Shown here piece after piece: positions 11,802-47,179 of a DNA stretch of 64,000 bases. Position numbers and translations under genes: made by a program. The stretch covers positions 66,620,929 to 66,684,928 of the forward strand of contig CM049312.1 in assembly GCA_026874595.1 (NCBI GenBank), given 5' to 3'. This stretch comes from Sipunculus nudus. Taxonomy: Eukaryota; Annelida; Sipuncula; Golfingiida; Sipunculidae. Position 1 is the stretch's first letter. Each line of letters begins with the position of its first letter. Below the pieces are notes generated by a model. The model worked only from the letters and a program-made list of their open reading frames with translations. It searched no databases and was not told the origin of the DNA.

Positions 11802-12255
11802 AGCAAGTGAGGTCCTAGTTACTGGAAATTCAATAATGAGCTTCTGCGTGATGATGAATATGTAAATGTGACTAAAGAAGTTATAAAGGAACTGAAAGCA
11901 AAATACAAAGGATACGAAAATATGAATATAATTTGGGACACGGTCAAATGTGAAATACGGGGTCATACAATAAAATACTCAAAACGAAAAAGCAAAGCAA
12001 AAAAAGCGCTAGAACTTGAATTGAATACACAGATAAGTAACCTTACTACACTTATGGCTGCAAACCCAAAAGATCTAACTGTACATAGTGAGCTGGAACA
12101 CGTAAAATAAAAATTAAATGAAATATATCACACACAAACAAAGGGAGCCATTTTGCGTTCGCAATTAAAATGGCACGAAGAAGGGGAAAGGTGTACAAAA
12201 TATATTCTATCTTTGGAAAAGAGGAATTATAAAAGGAGTTAAAATCATAAAATTA

Positions 12256-13983
12256 ATGAAACAGGGTAAAGAAATTTATGGTAAAGAAGAAATTTTAAAT
12301 GAATGTAGCAACCATTTCCGGTCGATATACACAGAAGCAAGTGATCACATATGTACAAATGGCGAATGCACTTATTATGATTCAGAAACTATTCCAAAAC
12401 TCAGTAAGTTAGAAAAAGAATTGCTCGAAAAACCGTTATCAAAAGAGGAATGCTTAAAAGCACTAAAAGATTTTAAGGAGGGAAAAAGCCCAGGTTTAGA
12501 TGGATACACGTCAGAGTTTTATAAATATTTCTGGACGGATTTGGGAGATTTATTTTATAATTCTGTCAACTATTCTTATGAAAAAGAACTACTTTCGATT
12601 GAACAAAGACGTGGATTAATTACTCTGCTGCCAAAAAAGAATAAAGACAGGACTATATTAAAGAACTGGCGACCCATATCATTATTGCCTGTGGACTATA
12701 AAATTATTTCAAAAGCTATTTCTAATCGTATTAAACTTCTTTTAAAAGGCCTGATACATACTGATCAAACTGGTTTTGTCCCAGGAAGATTTATCGGTGA
12801 AAATCTACGGAAAATCCAGGATGTCCTTAATCTAACAAAATTGAATAAATTATCCAATATTTTGCTTCCTATAGATTTTGAAACCGTATTGGACACATTA
12901 AATTCGTCCTTTATTTTCAAAACACTAGAAACCTTTGGCTTTCCAACAAATCTCATGGATTAAAATATTATACAGTGATATAAGCAGCTGTGTACAGAAC
13001 AATGGATACTTGTCGCCCAGGTTTACAATCGAACGCGGGGTACGTCATGGTTGCCCACTCTCCCCCATTCTTTTCGTATTATGTGCAGAAATAATGGCGA
13101 TAAAAATTCGGGAGAACAAACACATAAAAGGGATAACGATTAAAACACAGAAATCAAAATAGCTCAGCTGGCTGACGACACAACATGTTTCGTGGCAGAT
13201 GAAACATCTGCAAAAAATCTTTTAGACTTATTGAAAACATTCCAATTTCATTCTGGTTTAAAAATCAATCTAAACAAAACGGAGGCTCGTTGGGTAGGAT
13301 GTAGAGCTGGTAAGGAAGACGGAGACTTGCCAGTAAGATGGACTAGGGGACCTTTCGAAACCCTTGGTATAACCTTCTATGAAAATGAGACACAAACTGC
13401 AATTTTTAATTTCAAAAAGAAAATGGGCAACATGAAAACGTCGCTTGATTCATGGGCTAAACGTAACCTTACATTAACAGGACGTGTTGTAATAATTAAA
13501 ACCCTAGGACTGTCAAAATTAGTTTACTGTATGTCTAATTTTCACATTCCAACACATCTTTTGAAGGAAGCACAATTTCTAATAAATGATTTTCTATGGC
13601 AAGGAAAACCACCTAAAATTAAACATTCGGTCATGATAAACGGCACACAGAAAGGAGGATTACGAATGCCTGACATAGAGACACAAGATAAAGCAAGGAA
13701 ACTAACATGGATCGACAAAATACTATCTTACATATCGAAACTTAATGAATTAATCGAGTCATACTTTTGTGAAAATAGCTTAACCATGCTAGACATTGTA
13801 AAAAGTCGCTGCTTCATTGATTTGCCTGCTCAACTTCCTTATTTCTACAAAGATATTATTAATAATCTGCGAGAAATTAAACTAACACTTGCACCAATTG
13901 ACGATGAGGAAATTGCTTCCGAGTTTAAATGGTGTAATAATCTTATAAATATCGAAAACAAATCACTCTATTACAAAACATGA
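12256..13983 (+). pseudogene. LINE reverse transcriptase domain, disrupted
   Basis: The polymerase core reads GKSPGLDGYTSEFYKYFW, then NWRPISLLPVDYKIISKAIS, TDQTGFVPGRFIGENLRKIQ and, after a shift near 12945, RGVRHGCPLSPILFVLCAEI. After another shift near 13150 it reads IAQLADDTTCFV. The catalytic pair of Asp is at 13174-13179; the residue before Ala is Leu where Tyr or Phe is usual. Thumb-like sequence follows to a TGA at 13981-13983 that sits where relatives have Trp. The region 11825-12250 just before it holds the usual linker (YWKFNNELL; later KWHEEGERCTKY). Domain order and spacing match L1/Tx1 ORF2. Confidence 0.92.
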
Positions 13984-14858
13984 TACAAAAAGGGAATCAG
14001 AACAATTAGAGATATAATTAATGATTCTGGCGAATTTCTCTCTGTGAGAGAACTTGTGAAAAAATTTAATATAAGAACTAATTTTATAGAATACTATGGT
14101 CTGATCAAGAGCATCCCAAATGAATGGAAAGCTAAACTTAAAAATTACAAAAATAACAAAAATACTGATCATGAAACCTGCGAGGAAAATACGAACAATG
14201 TAAGCATGACAAAATACAGATGTAGAGACTACTATGACAAGTTAATACAAAAGAAAACAGAAGAACCAACATCCTTACTTCAATGGAACCATGAATATGA
14301 ACTTTCACTGACAGAGTTTTATGACAACATATATAAATCTGTTAAAATATGTAATTCTAAAAGATTGAAAGACTTTCAATTTAGATTTATACACATGATT
14401 ATACCATGTAGATCCAGATTATATAAGATGAAGATTTTTACTGATAATATATGTGAACTTTGTGGCTTACAAGAGGAATCTTTGGAACAAAATTTATAAA
14501 TTGCAACCGAATACAACTATTCTGGGACCAAATAATAACATTTCTGAAACAAAATCTGTCAGAAGCAACGTTAACATTAACAAAAAGAGCTATGTTATTG
14601 GGGATAGACACGGAATCACAAGATGTCGTTACTTACATTGTCATGTTAGCAAAATATTATATTCACGTACAAAAATGCAACAATGAGGAACCTGTGTTTA
14701 AATTATTTTTGCAGTTCGTGACAAATGAATTGGATATGGAAAAAATGCTCCTGAGAAAACGGGGGAAAGAAACGGTTTACGATAATAAATGGGCAAAAAT
14801 TTATGAGAATATAAAAAAATCTTTTAAAGTAGGACCCTATAACCCCCCCCCCTCCTAA
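13984..14858 (+). pseudogene. LINE ORF2 C-terminal region with degenerate Cys motif
   Basis: The same frame continues past the TGA as YKKGIRTIRDIINDSGEF and runs to ICELCGLQEESLEQ. This is the start of the C-x-x-C...H...C motif found at the end of L1-type ORF2. The His position reads Gln and a one-base shift follows at about 14490, after which FINCNRIQLFWDQI continues in another frame. The last stop is at 14856-14858, just after a run of nine cytosines. It confirms that the ORF reaches its normal 3' end. Confidence 0.85.
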
Positions 14859-24437: not shown

Positions 24438-25393
24438 CTAACAAATATATTTTATATTGAATGAGATAAACACAGCAAGAATAAAAATTAATATAGAAAC
24501 CCCCAATCGCTGTGTCATACGCCGGAAGTCAGGCGGGAGAATGTACTCGCTGACCTTTGTCGTAATGTGAAAAGTCCAATGTGATATAGCGAGGTATATA
24601 ACAGTGGCAGCAGCCATGTTTAATAAGGGATAACCTTGAATGTACAAAATGCGTTTTTTGGCATTAGACTGTAAAAACACATGAAACTGTGAAATGTAAG
24701 TCTCAAGTGTTATTTTACCAATGTAGGCAAATATTTGTATGTAATAACCCCGGGCTTTAAGAAATATATTCCTTATAATAACGCAAGAGATAACGGGGAA
24801 AATAGATGCAACAGGATGTATACGGAGGTAGGACGATTTCTCCCTCCTAAAGCAGAACATATACCACATGTAGAAACCTAAACAACATAATGTCAACATG
24901 GCTCCTTTAATGCTTCTGTTTAGAAAATATAAACGTTTGGTGGATTCGCATTCTAGTTTATGAAGCATTCTCTCATATGCTGGGTAGCTGTAGGCGCAAA
25001 GCATCCCGGCCAAACATGCCCAATGGTCTAAATGCGACCTATATATCCATTCATTGAGAGGGTCGTGTTTTAGATGGTTGAGTTTCAGTATGAAGCTTAC
25101 TGGTTTGAACACAGTGGCTGTATATCCAGTGTCAAATATGACCCAGTTTACCACTGCGTATACAAGAAACTTGAAGAGCATTTTCAGTCGATGCTGATTC
25201 CATGAACGCAGGACGGCCATCATCGCGTACACGGACAGGAACCAGTAAGTATGCATGGGACAGATGTAGTACAACATGTATTGGTTATCTGTGACAGCAC
25301 AGACCAGCAGTACCAGGAAGTTTAGTCGAAACAGCATCTTTAACAACCGCCATAAGCTGTAGTCACCACGTATCCAGAAGAAAGAAAAGTTTC
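24438..25393 (-). CDS. CASD1: CASD1-like terminal exon D (956 nt)
   Basis: The acceptor AATTGTAG ends at 25394. The exon encodes 317 residues from [20 protein letters not shown] to NIKYIC and the stop at 24440-24438. It holds most of the membrane domain: [97 protein letters not shown] and [15 protein letters not shown]. All have counterparts in animal CASD1. The frame has no internal stop. Its last ~425 bp and the 3' flank are duplicated at 40740-41245. Confidence 0.93.
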
Positions 25394-27354
25394 CTACAAT
25401 TAGAACCCAAAGATGAATTGTTATAATGTCTGTCTGAAAATATCCTTTTTTTGTGTATCATTATTATTTCTTTGCTTCATTTTCAATCCGTTGAGTGTTT
25501 GGAATGGATATTAAATATTTATAACATTATGTCGATATGAGTATTTTATTAATATTTGTATATATAATCCCCTGTTAGATGCAGGGTGGTGTGTTTGTTG
25601 GAGTGTCTCAGTAATTAACATTTAACAAAGGAGCATTACAATTTCAGGGTATGAATGATAGATAACATATTTTGAGTTTTTCTCATGGAATTATCCGCTC
25701 TCCAGGTTCTGAACGGTTACCTTATTAAGTTGTATTTAGTTCTCTCTTAAGTATATACTGCTTGCATGACCACGCAAATAAGAATCGGAGTGACACAGTT
25801 TGTGATATCAGCTTATAGGCATAATATTCGATTACGTAACGTCACATGTTTGGTTAAAAGAACCCATAATTCTTCCACACATTTAAGAACGCCTCCTTAA
25901 AAATCGAAGTAAAAGCCGCTTTTGACTGTTCGATTAGTATAGTACAGACACATAAATTAATTCAAATTTAATGTTAAATTAGAATGTCCAATTATAACAG
26001 ACGACAGAATAATAATATGCTGCCATATGACTTTGACGAAATGTCGCGGTACGCACTGCTCTCAACCAGGAAAACTGGAGAAAAATGTCTCAATAAAAAA
26101 ACTTTTAAAGTTCAGAACGTATTATTGAAAGGAAACGTGTTCTTAAGACCTATACATAGATAATAGTTCTTTACCAAATCCGGTCATCCAGACGTAAGCA
26201 GCGATGAGCGTCCGGATGAAGTTGTACCACTCTGAGGCGCTGTAGTAATGATACCAAACAAATAGGACCTGCATCCAGCCCTTCCATTCCTCGGTCTGGT
26301 CTCTGCTCACAGAAAAAGCATATGCACATCAAAACCAAAAATCTAAAATCTCGAGTCATAGCCAGTGTCTACAAACATTGTTCCTTGCCCATAAATAAAT
26401 TAAATATTTATCAATACCTTTACTTTTAATAGTCATGGTCATTCGCTACAAACATACATTACGACATCTAGCCACCAGCATAATATATTAACCGGCAAGA
26501 ATTAGCCATTTTATTTATAATCGCTGTCAATGAGGAAGGCAGATGTTGCGAGTACATCGAGGTCTGTCGGTCTCACCGTCTAAGCGTCTTTGCAGGTTCG
26601 TAAAGAGTATAACTCCAAAACTTTCAGTAATTCCAATGAACATTTGTTGAGTTCAAAGAACGTTTGACAATTACACTTGGTGACAGACAACTCTTAAACT
26701 TCCAGAAGACGAAGTGAACCATAAAAAATTAAACTGCAACAGCTGCAAATCTGTCTAGTTATCATGAAATGTCCCTAACCCATTAGGTTTTTGTCAGGCA
26801 GAAATCTTTGGATTCCAACTTCCAAGAACAACAATAAACCTACTCAGGAACTTATCCAGGTAGTCAAATGGCAATTATCCAGTTTAGAATTCCACTTTAA
26901 ATTGATATCGAACCTTTTATGACTTTGTATCTTGATGAATGTCGTACAAATATACAAAGGTTTGAAGGTTTCGTAGTGTATCTCTTATTTCTTTTTGTTG
27001 ATTTCCTACACTATCTAGTACTAAATTTGCAACTGGAAAATTTGAAGGTGCTACATATACAGATTCAATATAAACGGTTGTCCTGAAATCTGCTTTTATA
27101 AAAAGATGTTCTGAACGGCAGGGTGAAACCATGAGGTGAAAGAAAGAATATGTAGAGACACAAACCTATTTATGATCTTCGGGGGTGTTTTAGTGACCGT
27201 GAAAACACACCCAAACCAACACAGTGTGGCAAACAAAAACAAAAACGTATCCCGATTGTACTTTCTCTGGCCGGTAGGGAAGACCTAAGAAACATAGATA
27301 AAAACCCAAAGATACAGATTACATCTCGATGAGATTTGTATTGCAAAGACACAA

Positions 27355-44490: not shown

Positions 44491-45480
44491 GAAAACAACA
44501 CCATTGAAACGGGAGAGGTACCCTCTCATGGTGTATGAAGAGTATAGTTATCCTGTAACAGACCTGTAGCCAAAGCTGACTGTATTGATACCAGCACAAG
44601 CCCCATCTGACACACTCCTCATTTGTGCATCTGTTGAATCAAACGATCTAGCGATCAATCTAGCGTCAGGCCACCACTTCCCCCACCCCCACCTCTATTT
44701 TTTCACTCTTCGAGTCTGCCAAATTCCACCAACGTATATTTCTCAACTTTATTTGTTTCATTTAGTGTCATGAAATCTGATACTGGTCTGTTTACTGACC
44801 ATGACTAGTCTCATCATTCCCTGAAGGCTGGTGGCGCAACCTGAACTTTACCCTTCATTTTAGAGACTGTCAGACTACCCGATGGTATCAGTTTCTCAAT
44901 TGTGGTTTCATTTAGTAATGAAACCTGGTGTGTTCCTTATGTGCCCCCCCCCCCCCTTTCAGCCACCGCAACTTTTGATAATATTTCAGACCAATGTTTG
45001 CGGCCTGGACCACCCTTTTCAGGACATGGGGACCTTTTTTTAGGTTTTTCATTGGTCCTCTTGGATTGACCCCTTCTTTTCCTATATCCTGGATTCCGCC
45101 CCTGCATACTGAGCCAGTTTTTATATGTGGAATATCTTGTGAACGCAATTCATTTAGAAGCACTACATATTTTTTCTTATATCTACCAAAATCTGGGAGC
45201 GTTCTGAAACTGGTGACCTTAACTTTAATTATCAAGGCCAAATCAGCCGATACGTTAAAGTGTTGTGAACCCTCTATAGACAGGACCAAAACCAGAACAA
45301 TTCGATAACCGTCAATACCAAACTTTTCTCAATTTATCCTAGGGTAATATTTCCTGTAGAATCAATGGGACATTTTGTATCGTGTAAATTTAATGAAATA
45401 ATTTGCAAATTTGAATAAATTATTGTAATACTAATATATTGTGCCAAAATACATTACTTTGCCTAGCTAAAGCCAAAATA
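44491..45480. repeat. dispersed-repeat region
   Basis: 44940-45100 shares TTTCAGACCAAT-TTGCGGCCTGG and flanking phrases with 15885-16025. 45120-45240 resembles units of the 47180-47980 array (GTTCTGAAACTGGTGACCTT). A run of 14 C lies at about 44944-44957. Open frames on both strands over it (104 and 125 codons) are fortuitous. Confidence 0.5.
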
Positions 45481-45660
45481 TCAATCAGTCTCTTTATTAT
45501 ATTTCATATTTCACTAATCTATTCAAATATGCAAATTATCTCATTAAATATGCAAGATTCAAAAAGTCCTTAGCAGAAAATGATTCTACAGGAAAAATAA
45601 GTCTACAATCAATTAATGAAAGTTTGGCAGTGACGATTACAGAATTGTTCCGGGGTTTGT
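45481..45660. repeat. paralog of the TRIM insertion site (empty site)
   Basis: The sequence TATTCAAATATGCAAATTAT followed by CTCATTAAATATGCAAGATTC continues to AAAGTTTGGCAGTGACGATT. It aligns with 46457-46513 joined directly to 46945-47060. The inserted TRIM is absent here. This fixes the element boundaries independently of the LTR comparison. Confidence 0.75.
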
Positions 45661-46513
45661 CCTGTCTGATGTTGTTTATAAATACGTTATATGTAAACAA
45701 GTTAATACAGTGATGCAAATGTGTAAATTTTCTTATGAAATGATGTAGAGAATACATAACAAGGCTTAGTTTGGTGAAAGGATCAGTTCTTTCTTTGTTA
45801 GCCTTTTTTTATGAAAAAAATGCATTTTTTTAACTATATACTTACGAATTTATCTGCAATGTACTGCTTAAATCCCAATCTTCATGTAAAGTATTGTTAC
45901 ATTTGACACAAACTGAATATTTTATTCCCATTATACTTCACTCTTACTACTTAAAGGGGCCCAAACACCTATAAACCTTGTTGAATTAACACTTAAAATA
46001 GCTTACACCCTTAAAATAAATTTGTTCCTGCCAAAATATTGCCATGAAACCGTTTGCTTACTCCTATGAACGAGTGTTAAAAACAGTGGACCGGGCGCGA
46101 TGGCAGGTGTAAACATAAACACAGCACATGCATCGCCGGGCCACATTACGTGTCAATCAGGAGATACCCTGACTGACTTGGCCCGAAAATGTAATACATG
46201 TTCCAACTGGCTGAAACGTCGTGTGTTGGGACTCACAGTCGAACCTCCGGTATGGCGGACTTGGTATGGTAAGGAGACACACGCAGAGCCATGGCAAGGT
46301 GTTAAACAGCCGTATGCGAGGCACTGGGATGTGTGTTGGGATAGTTTTGCCCCGAAACGTTCGTATAAAGCAAAACTGAACTGATAGTGTGAAAGGATAG
46401 GCAAAATATTGTTCCTGATTATGTCCTTATAAAGCCAAAATTACAATATATTTATGTGTAATAAATTATATTTCAATAATTTATTCAAATATGTAAATTA
46501 TCTCATTAAACGT
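45661..46513. other. unassigned; open frames on both strands at 46089-46404
   Basis: Mostly AT-rich. At 46089-46384 a G+C-richer island is open on the plus strand for 94 codons (Trp- and Cys-rich) and on the minus strand for 83 codons. I recognise neither product, no intron signals are apparent, and GC-rich DNA opens frames by chance. It may be a piece of an unknown element or noncoding RNA. Confidence 0.3.
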
Positions 46514-46668
46514 TGATATGGGGTGACATAAAAGCGGACCAAACTGTCTCGATAGTGAAGCTTGCTTTTCTAGCGAAGCTGTTGGAACATCGGACATGTG
46601 CGCCATCCACATAGGTTCAAATCTGGGTTCGGCCCAGAATTTTTCCCTGTAACTTTGTCTTCGTAACA
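46514..46668 (+). repeat. TRIM 5' LTR
   Basis: It runs from TGATAT (decayed TGTTAC) to CGTAACA. It carries TAGCGAAGCTGTTGG and, 31 bases after the core, GGTTCAAATCTGG. These resemble the A and B boxes of a tRNA promoter. Confidence 0.85.
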
Positions 46669-46672
46669 AAAA

Positions 46673-46690
46673 TGGGGGCTCGTCCGGGAT
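46673..46690 (+). promoter_or_regulatory. primer-binding site complementary to tRNA-Pro 3' end
   Basis: TGGGGGCTCGTCCGGGAT, 18 of 18 identical to the classical tRNA-Pro primer-binding site, located four bases inside the LTR boundary as expected for first-strand priming. Confidence 0.88.
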
Positions 46691-46777
46691 GACGGCAAAC
46701 TTTGGGGCCCAGGGAATAAGCTCAACAAAGTGTGACTCCTGAGATAATTAGTCTTGTTCTGATAGCAGAACGCTCTT

Positions 46778-46788
46778 AAGAGGGGGTG
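46778..46788 (+). promoter_or_regulatory. polypurine tract of the TRIM
   Basis: AAGAGGGGGTG abuts the start of the second LTR at 46789, the position where second-strand priming occurs. Confidence 0.7.
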
Positions 46789-46940
46789 TGTTACGGGGTG
46801 ACATAAAAGCGGACCGAACTGTCTCGCTAATGAAGCTTGCTTTTCTAGCGAAGCGGTTGGAACATGGACGTGCGCCACCCGCATTGGTTTGAATCCGGGA
46901 TCGGCCCAGAATTTTCCCCTTAATATTTGTCTTCGTTACA
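46789..46940 (+). repeat. TRIM 3' LTR
   Basis: It runs from TGTTACGGGG to TTCGTTACA. It has the same A-box-like (TAGCGAAGCGGTTGG) and B-box-like (GGTTTGAATCCGG) motifs, 28 bases apart. Followed by the ACGT target duplication. Confidence 0.85.
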
Positions 46941-47179
46941 ACGTGCACGATACACAACTGTTCTAAACAGAAATCGATTAAACAAGAAAAATTAATCTAT
47001 GATTAATTACTGAAAGTTCTACGATTAATTACTGAAAGTTCGGCAGTGACGATTATCGAATTGATCCTCAAATTTGACAAAAAGTTGTTTGAACTAAGTT
47101 CTTGAGTGAGATTACCTTGACCATAATTCTCAAGGTGGTATTAGCCGAATTCGTAAATACGATAACGTTGGGAGTATTG

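Follow-up and report, generated by a model that had tools for sequence, protein, structure and literature searches.

A Helenus-type TRIM in Sipunculus nudus, its likely Ty3/gypsy-type partner, and copies that mix the two

Introduction

The closest described systems are animal TRIMs. Helenus, named by Kojima 2024, comprises animal TRIMs whose LTRs carry tRNA-like A and B boxes; his report gives a range of six animal phyla, 51 bivalve families and, for one zebrafish family, 2618 interiors (PMC10886601). Animal Helenus elements have a 4-bp TSD and a primer-binding site (PBS) for a tRNA 3' end, that of tRNA-Pro in some bivalve families, and one family forms tandem arrays; Gypsy is thought to be the mobiliser in animals, the partner being inferred from PBS similarity, as with Gypsy-13_CGi for tRNA-Pro (PMC10886601). 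For biv-TRIM, found in eleven bivalves, the published description identified no PBS or partner (PMC6934838). Template switching, in turn, has been described in plant retrotransposons (Sabot and Schulman, 2007; PMC1950507).

The element studied here lies in a window of 64,000 nucleotides, which is the whole stretch of DNA that was analysed. An earlier note on it had held that complete animal TRIMs with an internal empty-site control are rarely described, a view at odds with biv-TRIM in eleven bivalves and Helenus in six phyla (PMC6934838, PMC10886601). The TRIM described in the note does exist and belongs to a known kind, and its other copies in the genome are more informative than the window copy itself.

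Results

Anatomy of the window element

Two LTRs, a PBS, a polypurine tract (PPT), a short non-coding interior and a TSD, the features of a TRIM, are all present:

46510 to 46513, no strand: left TSD, ACGT, read from the sequence and the flank alignment
46514 to 46668, plus strand: 5' LTR, 155 bp, TG...CA, with ends that match the LTR profile of other copies
46571 to 46585, plus strand: box-A-like TAGCGAAGCTGTTGG in the 5' LTR, differing from the strict motif at one base
46614 to 46623, plus strand: box-B-like GGTTCAAATC in the 5' LTR, strict motif
46669 to 46788, plus strand: interior, 120 bp, without notable coding frame in the list of open reading frames
46673 to 46690, plus strand: PBS, 18 nt, tRNA-Pro, GGGAT form
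46780 to 46788, plus strand: PPT, GAGGGGGTG, adjoining the 3' LTR
46789 to 46940, plus strand: 3' LTR, 152 bp, from the LTR–LTR alignment
46846 to 46860, plus strand: box-A-like TAGCGAAGCGGTTGG in the 3' LTR, strict motif
46886 to 46895, plus strand: box-B-like GGTTTGAATC in the 3' LTR, differing from the strict motif at one base
46941 to 46944, no strand: right TSD, ACGT, read from the sequence and the flank alignment
45278 to 45667, no strand: foldback repeat acting as the empty-site copy, found as a reverse-complement self-match

The earlier note had the anatomy right. Its two LTRs of about 153 bp with TG...CA ends measure 155 and 152 bp and are 86% alike (85.8% identity over 155 columns with two gap openings; K2P 0.153), the 120-bp interior spans 46669–46788, the PPT ends at 46788 and so abuts the second LTR, and the duplicated ACGT stands on both sides. 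Four bases past the 5' LTR, namely after AAAA, the PBS (46673–46690) agrees at 18 of 18 positions with L124, a tRNA-Pro(AGG) gene in this genome, plus CCA, again as claimed. At base 19 from the start of the PBS the element has its own G and the tRNA has T, as expected if copying of the tRNA halts at 18. In the list of open reading frames, the only frame across the interior is a stop-to-stop frame of 121 amino acids on the opposite strand, which runs through the LTRs. Given the divergence of its two LTRs the window copy is old; K2P between the first and last LTR ranges from 0.040 to 0.197 in 39 other loci.

The flanking DNA had been described as paralogous to a nearby empty site. When the insert and one TSD are removed, the flanks align to 45450–45667 with 48 of 60 identical columns on the left and 59 of 77 on the right; the junction is ungapped, and homology stops at the 5' LTR, the first 40 bases of which match the foldback repeat at 12 positions. 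The clean junction therefore stands. What we rejected is the reading of the flank as unique paralogous DNA: 45278–45667 matches its own reverse complement over 394 columns at 71%, which identifies it as a foldback, and the flank is thus a repeat copy rather than unique DNA. The arms of this repeat are about 71% complementary and its ends are GGAC...GTCC-like; related pieces lie at 46430–46510 and 46944–47067, the TRIM having inserted in a second foldback copy.

Elsewhere in the window, adjacent frames at 12169–14858 resemble a LINE reverse transcriptase, as judged by eye from the translations. A 339-aa frame on the minus strand (24438–25457), also judged by eye, resembles an NRF-6-like membrane acyltransferase.

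Copies in the genome

A search of the 1.43-Gb assembly with the whole element gave at least 45 matches (40 scored of 3834 first-look candidates), of which 27 cover positions 1–427. At 595 places in the genome the LTR end is joined exactly to the first 13 bases of the PBS; the reversed control of this junction gave 0. We fetched the 39 best matches and 40 more loci from 100 listed junctions (of the 595). Copies with the same ends are hence many, and neither of the two outcomes that the earlier note had named as refuting it was observed.

TSDs were scored in 57 groups with at least two LTRs and both outer ends, the window copy included. A TSD of at least 4 bp was found in 36 of the 57 elements, exactly 4 bp in 31, and six bp inside TA repeats in five; 21 of the 57 had none, nor did any of 11 groups with a single LTR. 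Four groups hold three LTRs and one holds five. Insertions are frequently close to TA repeats: in 14 of 56 (9 of 34 best-match loci and 5 of 22 junction loci) a TA run of at least 8 is found no more than 24 bp from an end, compared with 14 of 583 nearby control stretches and 30 of 1333 blocks of the window.

Some loci are rearranged. L054, L055, L064 and L103 consist of a TRIM LTR and PBS followed by an inverted TRIM LTR, joined at CCGGGATT, which is common to the PBS and the box-B region; L054 and L055 have an identical flank. L052 holds two short tandem repeats in series, each of LTR tail plus PBS, joined at CCGGGATCGG.

Assignment to Helenus and the LTR boxes

The LTR profile of the family has TAGCGAAGCGG as box A and GGTTCGAATCC as box B. 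Strict box A occurs in 66 of 86 LTRs, strict box B in 63 and the two in A-then-B order in 49, and each LTR of the window copy retains one strict box; the earlier note had not mentioned these boxes. The 4-bp TSD and the PBS for a tRNA 3' end of Helenus are likewise found in this family, and mobilisation by Gypsy is indicated indirectly, through a PBS and LTR tips in common with a Gypsy-type element and through chimeras with it. Judged by published feature descriptions, the window element fits an old non-coding Helenus-type TRIM copy.

The LTR might instead be an ordinary Pol II LTR whose A and B boxes are chance or a dead remnant, so that the likeness to Helenus would be mere resemblance. In keeping with this, CATAAAAG is conserved at LTR position 14, one box in each window LTR is off the strict motif, and ARAGORN and Rfam called no tRNA in the window or the copies, Rfam giving at permissive thresholds weak matches that were mostly AT-repeat. 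A T run behind box B, moreover, would terminate Pol III inside the LTR. We nevertheless hold an ordinary Pol II LTR to be unlikely, because strict A-then-B order, present in 49 of 86 LTRs, arose only 3 times when one LTR was put through 200000 approximate dinucleotide shuffles. Pol III may use the Helenus-type LTR, and would then have to read through the T run.

A candidate autonomous partner

The PBS is not preceded by A at 264 places in the genome, 20 of which were fetched. Ten of these are one element, in which the LTR end CCGTAACA is followed by a spacer, for example TAAAAT, and by the identical 18-nt PBS; among the ten, L104 and L105 have 99% identity to each other. Four others start with a TRIM LTR (L091, L093, L101 and L103), and six represent other families. 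In L109, a copy of the ten-locus element, LTRs of 808 and 816 bp begin with TGTTACAG, the PPT is GGAGGGGGAG and the flanks are TA repeats. Its separate frames match, in this order, Integrase_H2C2, Integrase p58_C, RVT_1 and RNase H; SCAN and CCHC matches ahead of the integrase are weak and below the Pfam cut-offs. Integrase also precedes RVT_1 in L108 and L110, an arrangement given as the mark of the Gmr1 clade (PMC6238403).

A larger element sharing LTR ends and PBS with the TRIM, for which a search had been suggested, was thus found: it has the PBS and the LTR tips (TGTTAC...GTAACA) in common with the TRIM and resembles it in the PPT, but does not share the LTR body. From these shared parts and its domain order, this Ty3/gypsy-type element with Gmr1-like order is likely the autonomous partner of the TRIM. 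The L115 family is likewise primed by tRNA-Pro and has its integrase ahead of the reverse transcriptase; L115 itself (G000:C5:7138000-7146000) consists of tandem 5.9 kb units, 99.9% identical over 2084 bp.

Copies that mix TRIM and partner

L114, a longer cut of L091, combines a TRIM 5' LTR and PBS with a partner interior, including an RVT_1 frame, and a partner 3' LTR, and has TA repeats on both sides. In a search with its junction, all 40 scored matches (of 2711 candidates, query included) hold a TRIM LTR and a partner leader. A strict TRIM-LTR/partner-leader pattern occurs at 12 places, one of them with the partner spacer, which may represent a mutated partner. Five loci with the L114 type of junction were fetched, and they differ downstream. 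We read eight joins (L093, L114, L128–L132 and L138). The spacer is that of the TRIM in five, which places these joins within the PBS, that of the partner in L093 and L132, which therefore join at the common LTR tip, and ambiguous in L114.

The reverse form, a partner LTR and PBS followed by TRIM interior and TRIM LTR, was found in all six loci fetched for it (L133–L138), which came from eight places with a partner-like spacer among 14 TRIM-interior places listed. AATT bounds both ends of L137, so the DNA was already mixed when it integrated. In the composite L138, which is bounded by TGTT, a TRIM LTR stands at either end, and a partner leader and a partial partner LTR lie in between. Since L133 and L135 have the same inner join as L138, part of the count of mixed copies reflects amplification of a composite.

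Mixed elements could also have arisen by recombination or gene conversion of integrated copies, or in a single event that was then amplified and decayed. Leader sequences lend this some weight: the nearest neighbour of a chimera leader is another chimera in five of seven cases and a partner copy in two (nine partner leaders compared), with a mean distance of 0.076 among chimeras and 0.088 to partner copies. This suggests fewer events or one partner subfamily and, taken with the inner join common to L133, L135 and L138, events fewer in number than copies. Against such an origin, which we accordingly doubt, the closest sequence to the TRIM LTR of a chimera is an ordinary TRIM LTR in six of seven cases, with a tie in the seventh, and the chimeras differ in structure: L114 has a long partner interior, the leader runs to 798 in L129 and to 242 in L128, and L130 has other deletions. 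Nor would chromosomal recombination be expected to leave the matching AATT of the reverse-type L137. Second-strand transfer between co-packaged templates is the best explanation of the mixed elements. If plus-strand strong-stop DNA moves to the wrong minus strand, the two main mixed products are expected, as the common PBS would be the annealing site, whereas the joins at LTR tips need another kind of switch. LTR swapping in plant retrotransposons was reportedly described by Du in 2010 (cited in PMC5668417). In the open-licence literature we found no earlier description of chimeras between Helenus and a partner or of captured tRNA; on Helenus itself, from 2024 onward, Kojima's paper and a meeting report citing that paper came up.

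Two forms of the PBS

Bases 14–18 of the PBS read either GGGAT, as in the tRNA, or AACGT. Behind the TRIM LTR end, exact counts in the genome are 253 AACGT and 114 GGGAT, so that a 1:1 ratio is not upheld. Among 46 interiors of the BLAST-ranked set, for which the query had the GGGAT form, 17 have GGGAT and 11 AACGT; among 30 of the junction-pattern set the numbers are 5 and 14. Among 100 listed places (of 127), AACGT-like forms were found at none of the 86 that have a partner leader and at 7 of the 14 that have a TRIM interior.

The abundance of both forms and their unequal ratio would suit two old subfamilies, one of them primed by another tRNA. This is a reading that we regard as improbable. 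In 46 copies neither LTR nor interior shows linkage to the form of the PBS (between-minus-within distance −0.0002, permutation p 0.52), the nearest neighbour has the same form in 25 of 46 (expected 22.7), and the lowest p among 843 column tests is 0.004. The variable block, furthermore, lies within the 18-nt stretch contributed by the tRNA, one form being that of the tRNA, and AACGT would break the G53–C61 pair, which occurs in tRNAs. The pattern fits an AACGT template of which the tRNA would overwrite one strand, either strand then being retained; under this overwriting view, the 2.2:1 ratio calls for a bias or mixed sources.

Captured primer tRNA

At 12 places the PBS continues into tRNA-Pro. 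One is the tRNA gene L124, the sole tRNA-Pro reference for the read-through and PBS comparisons. Of the 11 others, four follow a TRIM LTR (L116, L117, L118 and L120) and three a partner-like LTR end (L119, L126 and L127); L123 resembles the L106/L115 family, and L121, L122 and L125 are ambiguous. The captured tRNA is antisense to the element. We also considered whether the tRNA-like part of the LTR is captured primer tRNA and rejected this, since boxes A and B are in sense orientation.

Agreement with the tRNA ends 34, 34, 34, 35, 38, 39, 39, 39, 40, 57 and 63 nt from its 3' end. Five of the 11 ends fall at 38–40 (P = 0.0004 against uniform ends, for a bin picked post hoc), and a second cluster at 34–35 (four of 11) is without explanation. 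Nucleotide 40 from the 3' end is G37, which is methylated in tRNA-Pro. Changes at nucleotides 18–19 affect 5 of 22 cells, compared with 6 of 308 at the other 28 of nucleotides 1–30 (p 0.0003; the search left 19–21 free); nucleotide 19 alone, at 3 of 11, differs weakly from the equally free nucleotides 20–21, at 2 of 22 (p 0.30). HIV-1 strong-stop DNA normally stops after 18 nt owing to m1A58 (PMC9317671). The end cluster beside G37 and the changes at nucleotides 18–19, beside m1A58, could be traces left by a mature tRNA that carried its modifications.

Discussion

Taken together, a Helenus-type TRIM mobilised by a Ty3/gypsy partner of Gmr1-like order, with priming by tRNA-Pro and chimeras formed in strand transfer, is in our judgement the probable account of this family, drawn as it is from comparison of genomic copies. 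Packaging of TRIM RNA would fall to the Ty3/gypsy-type partner, in which integrase lies ahead of reverse transcriptase. Mature tRNA-Pro would prime the minus strand at the site that is identical in TRIM and partner, and plus-strand strong-stop DNA would end with 18 tRNA-derived nucleotides. This DNA would sometimes pair with a partner minus strand rather than its own, giving elements that have a TRIM LTR at one end and a partner LTR at the other. Occasionally synthesis would pass nucleotide 18, and copied tRNA would be integrated. Insertion by the partner integrase, frequently into TA repeats, would create the 4-bp duplication. Points against this mechanism are the joins outside the PBS, the AACGT majority (253 compared with 114) and the 21 of 57 elements without a TSD.

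More tentatively, and with slightly less than even confidence, we propose that second-strand transfer at the tRNA-rewritten PBS of co-packaged templates could swap whole LTRs and that composites of the L138 type could found new TRIM-like families. If true, such swapping would demonstrate co-packaging and explain why the LTR bodies of TRIM and partner look unrelated, and it offers a testable route to new TRIM families. Natural recombinants indicate the partner, and copied tRNA the primer, without experiment; previously, the partner of animal Helenus was inferred via PBS likeness (PMC10886601) and none was found for biv-TRIM (PMC6934838). The two-form PBS, finally, is a countable record of how the final steps of reverse transcription resolve.

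The family resembles Helenus in its tRNA-like LTR boxes, 4-bp TSD, tRNA-3'-end PBS, PPT and a size within the range of 311–1263 bp, as well as in tandem arrays, known there from one family, and in Gypsy as presumed animal mobiliser (PMC10886601). It differs in box A, the majority form here being TAGCG...CGG with G as fifth base whereas most Helenus have Y (TRGCY...YGG), a likening made via published descriptions, and in that the partner is indicated here by chimeras and there by PBS similarity. Like biv-TRIM, it is a short non-coding LTR element with solo and tandem forms; the biv-TRIM repeats measure 202–218 bp and the interior 77–80 bp, compared with 155/152 and 120 bp here (PMC6934838). The partner shares with Gmr1-like Ty3/gypsy elements an integrase upstream of reverse transcriptase, the label referring to this domain order (PMC6238403). 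With LTR swapping and template switching in plants the present case shares mixed elements of two parents, thought to be made during reverse transcription (PMC1950507); unlike the plant cases, a TRIM is involved here, the joins lie at or beside the tRNA-primed site, the products are reciprocal, and copied tRNA is found with them.
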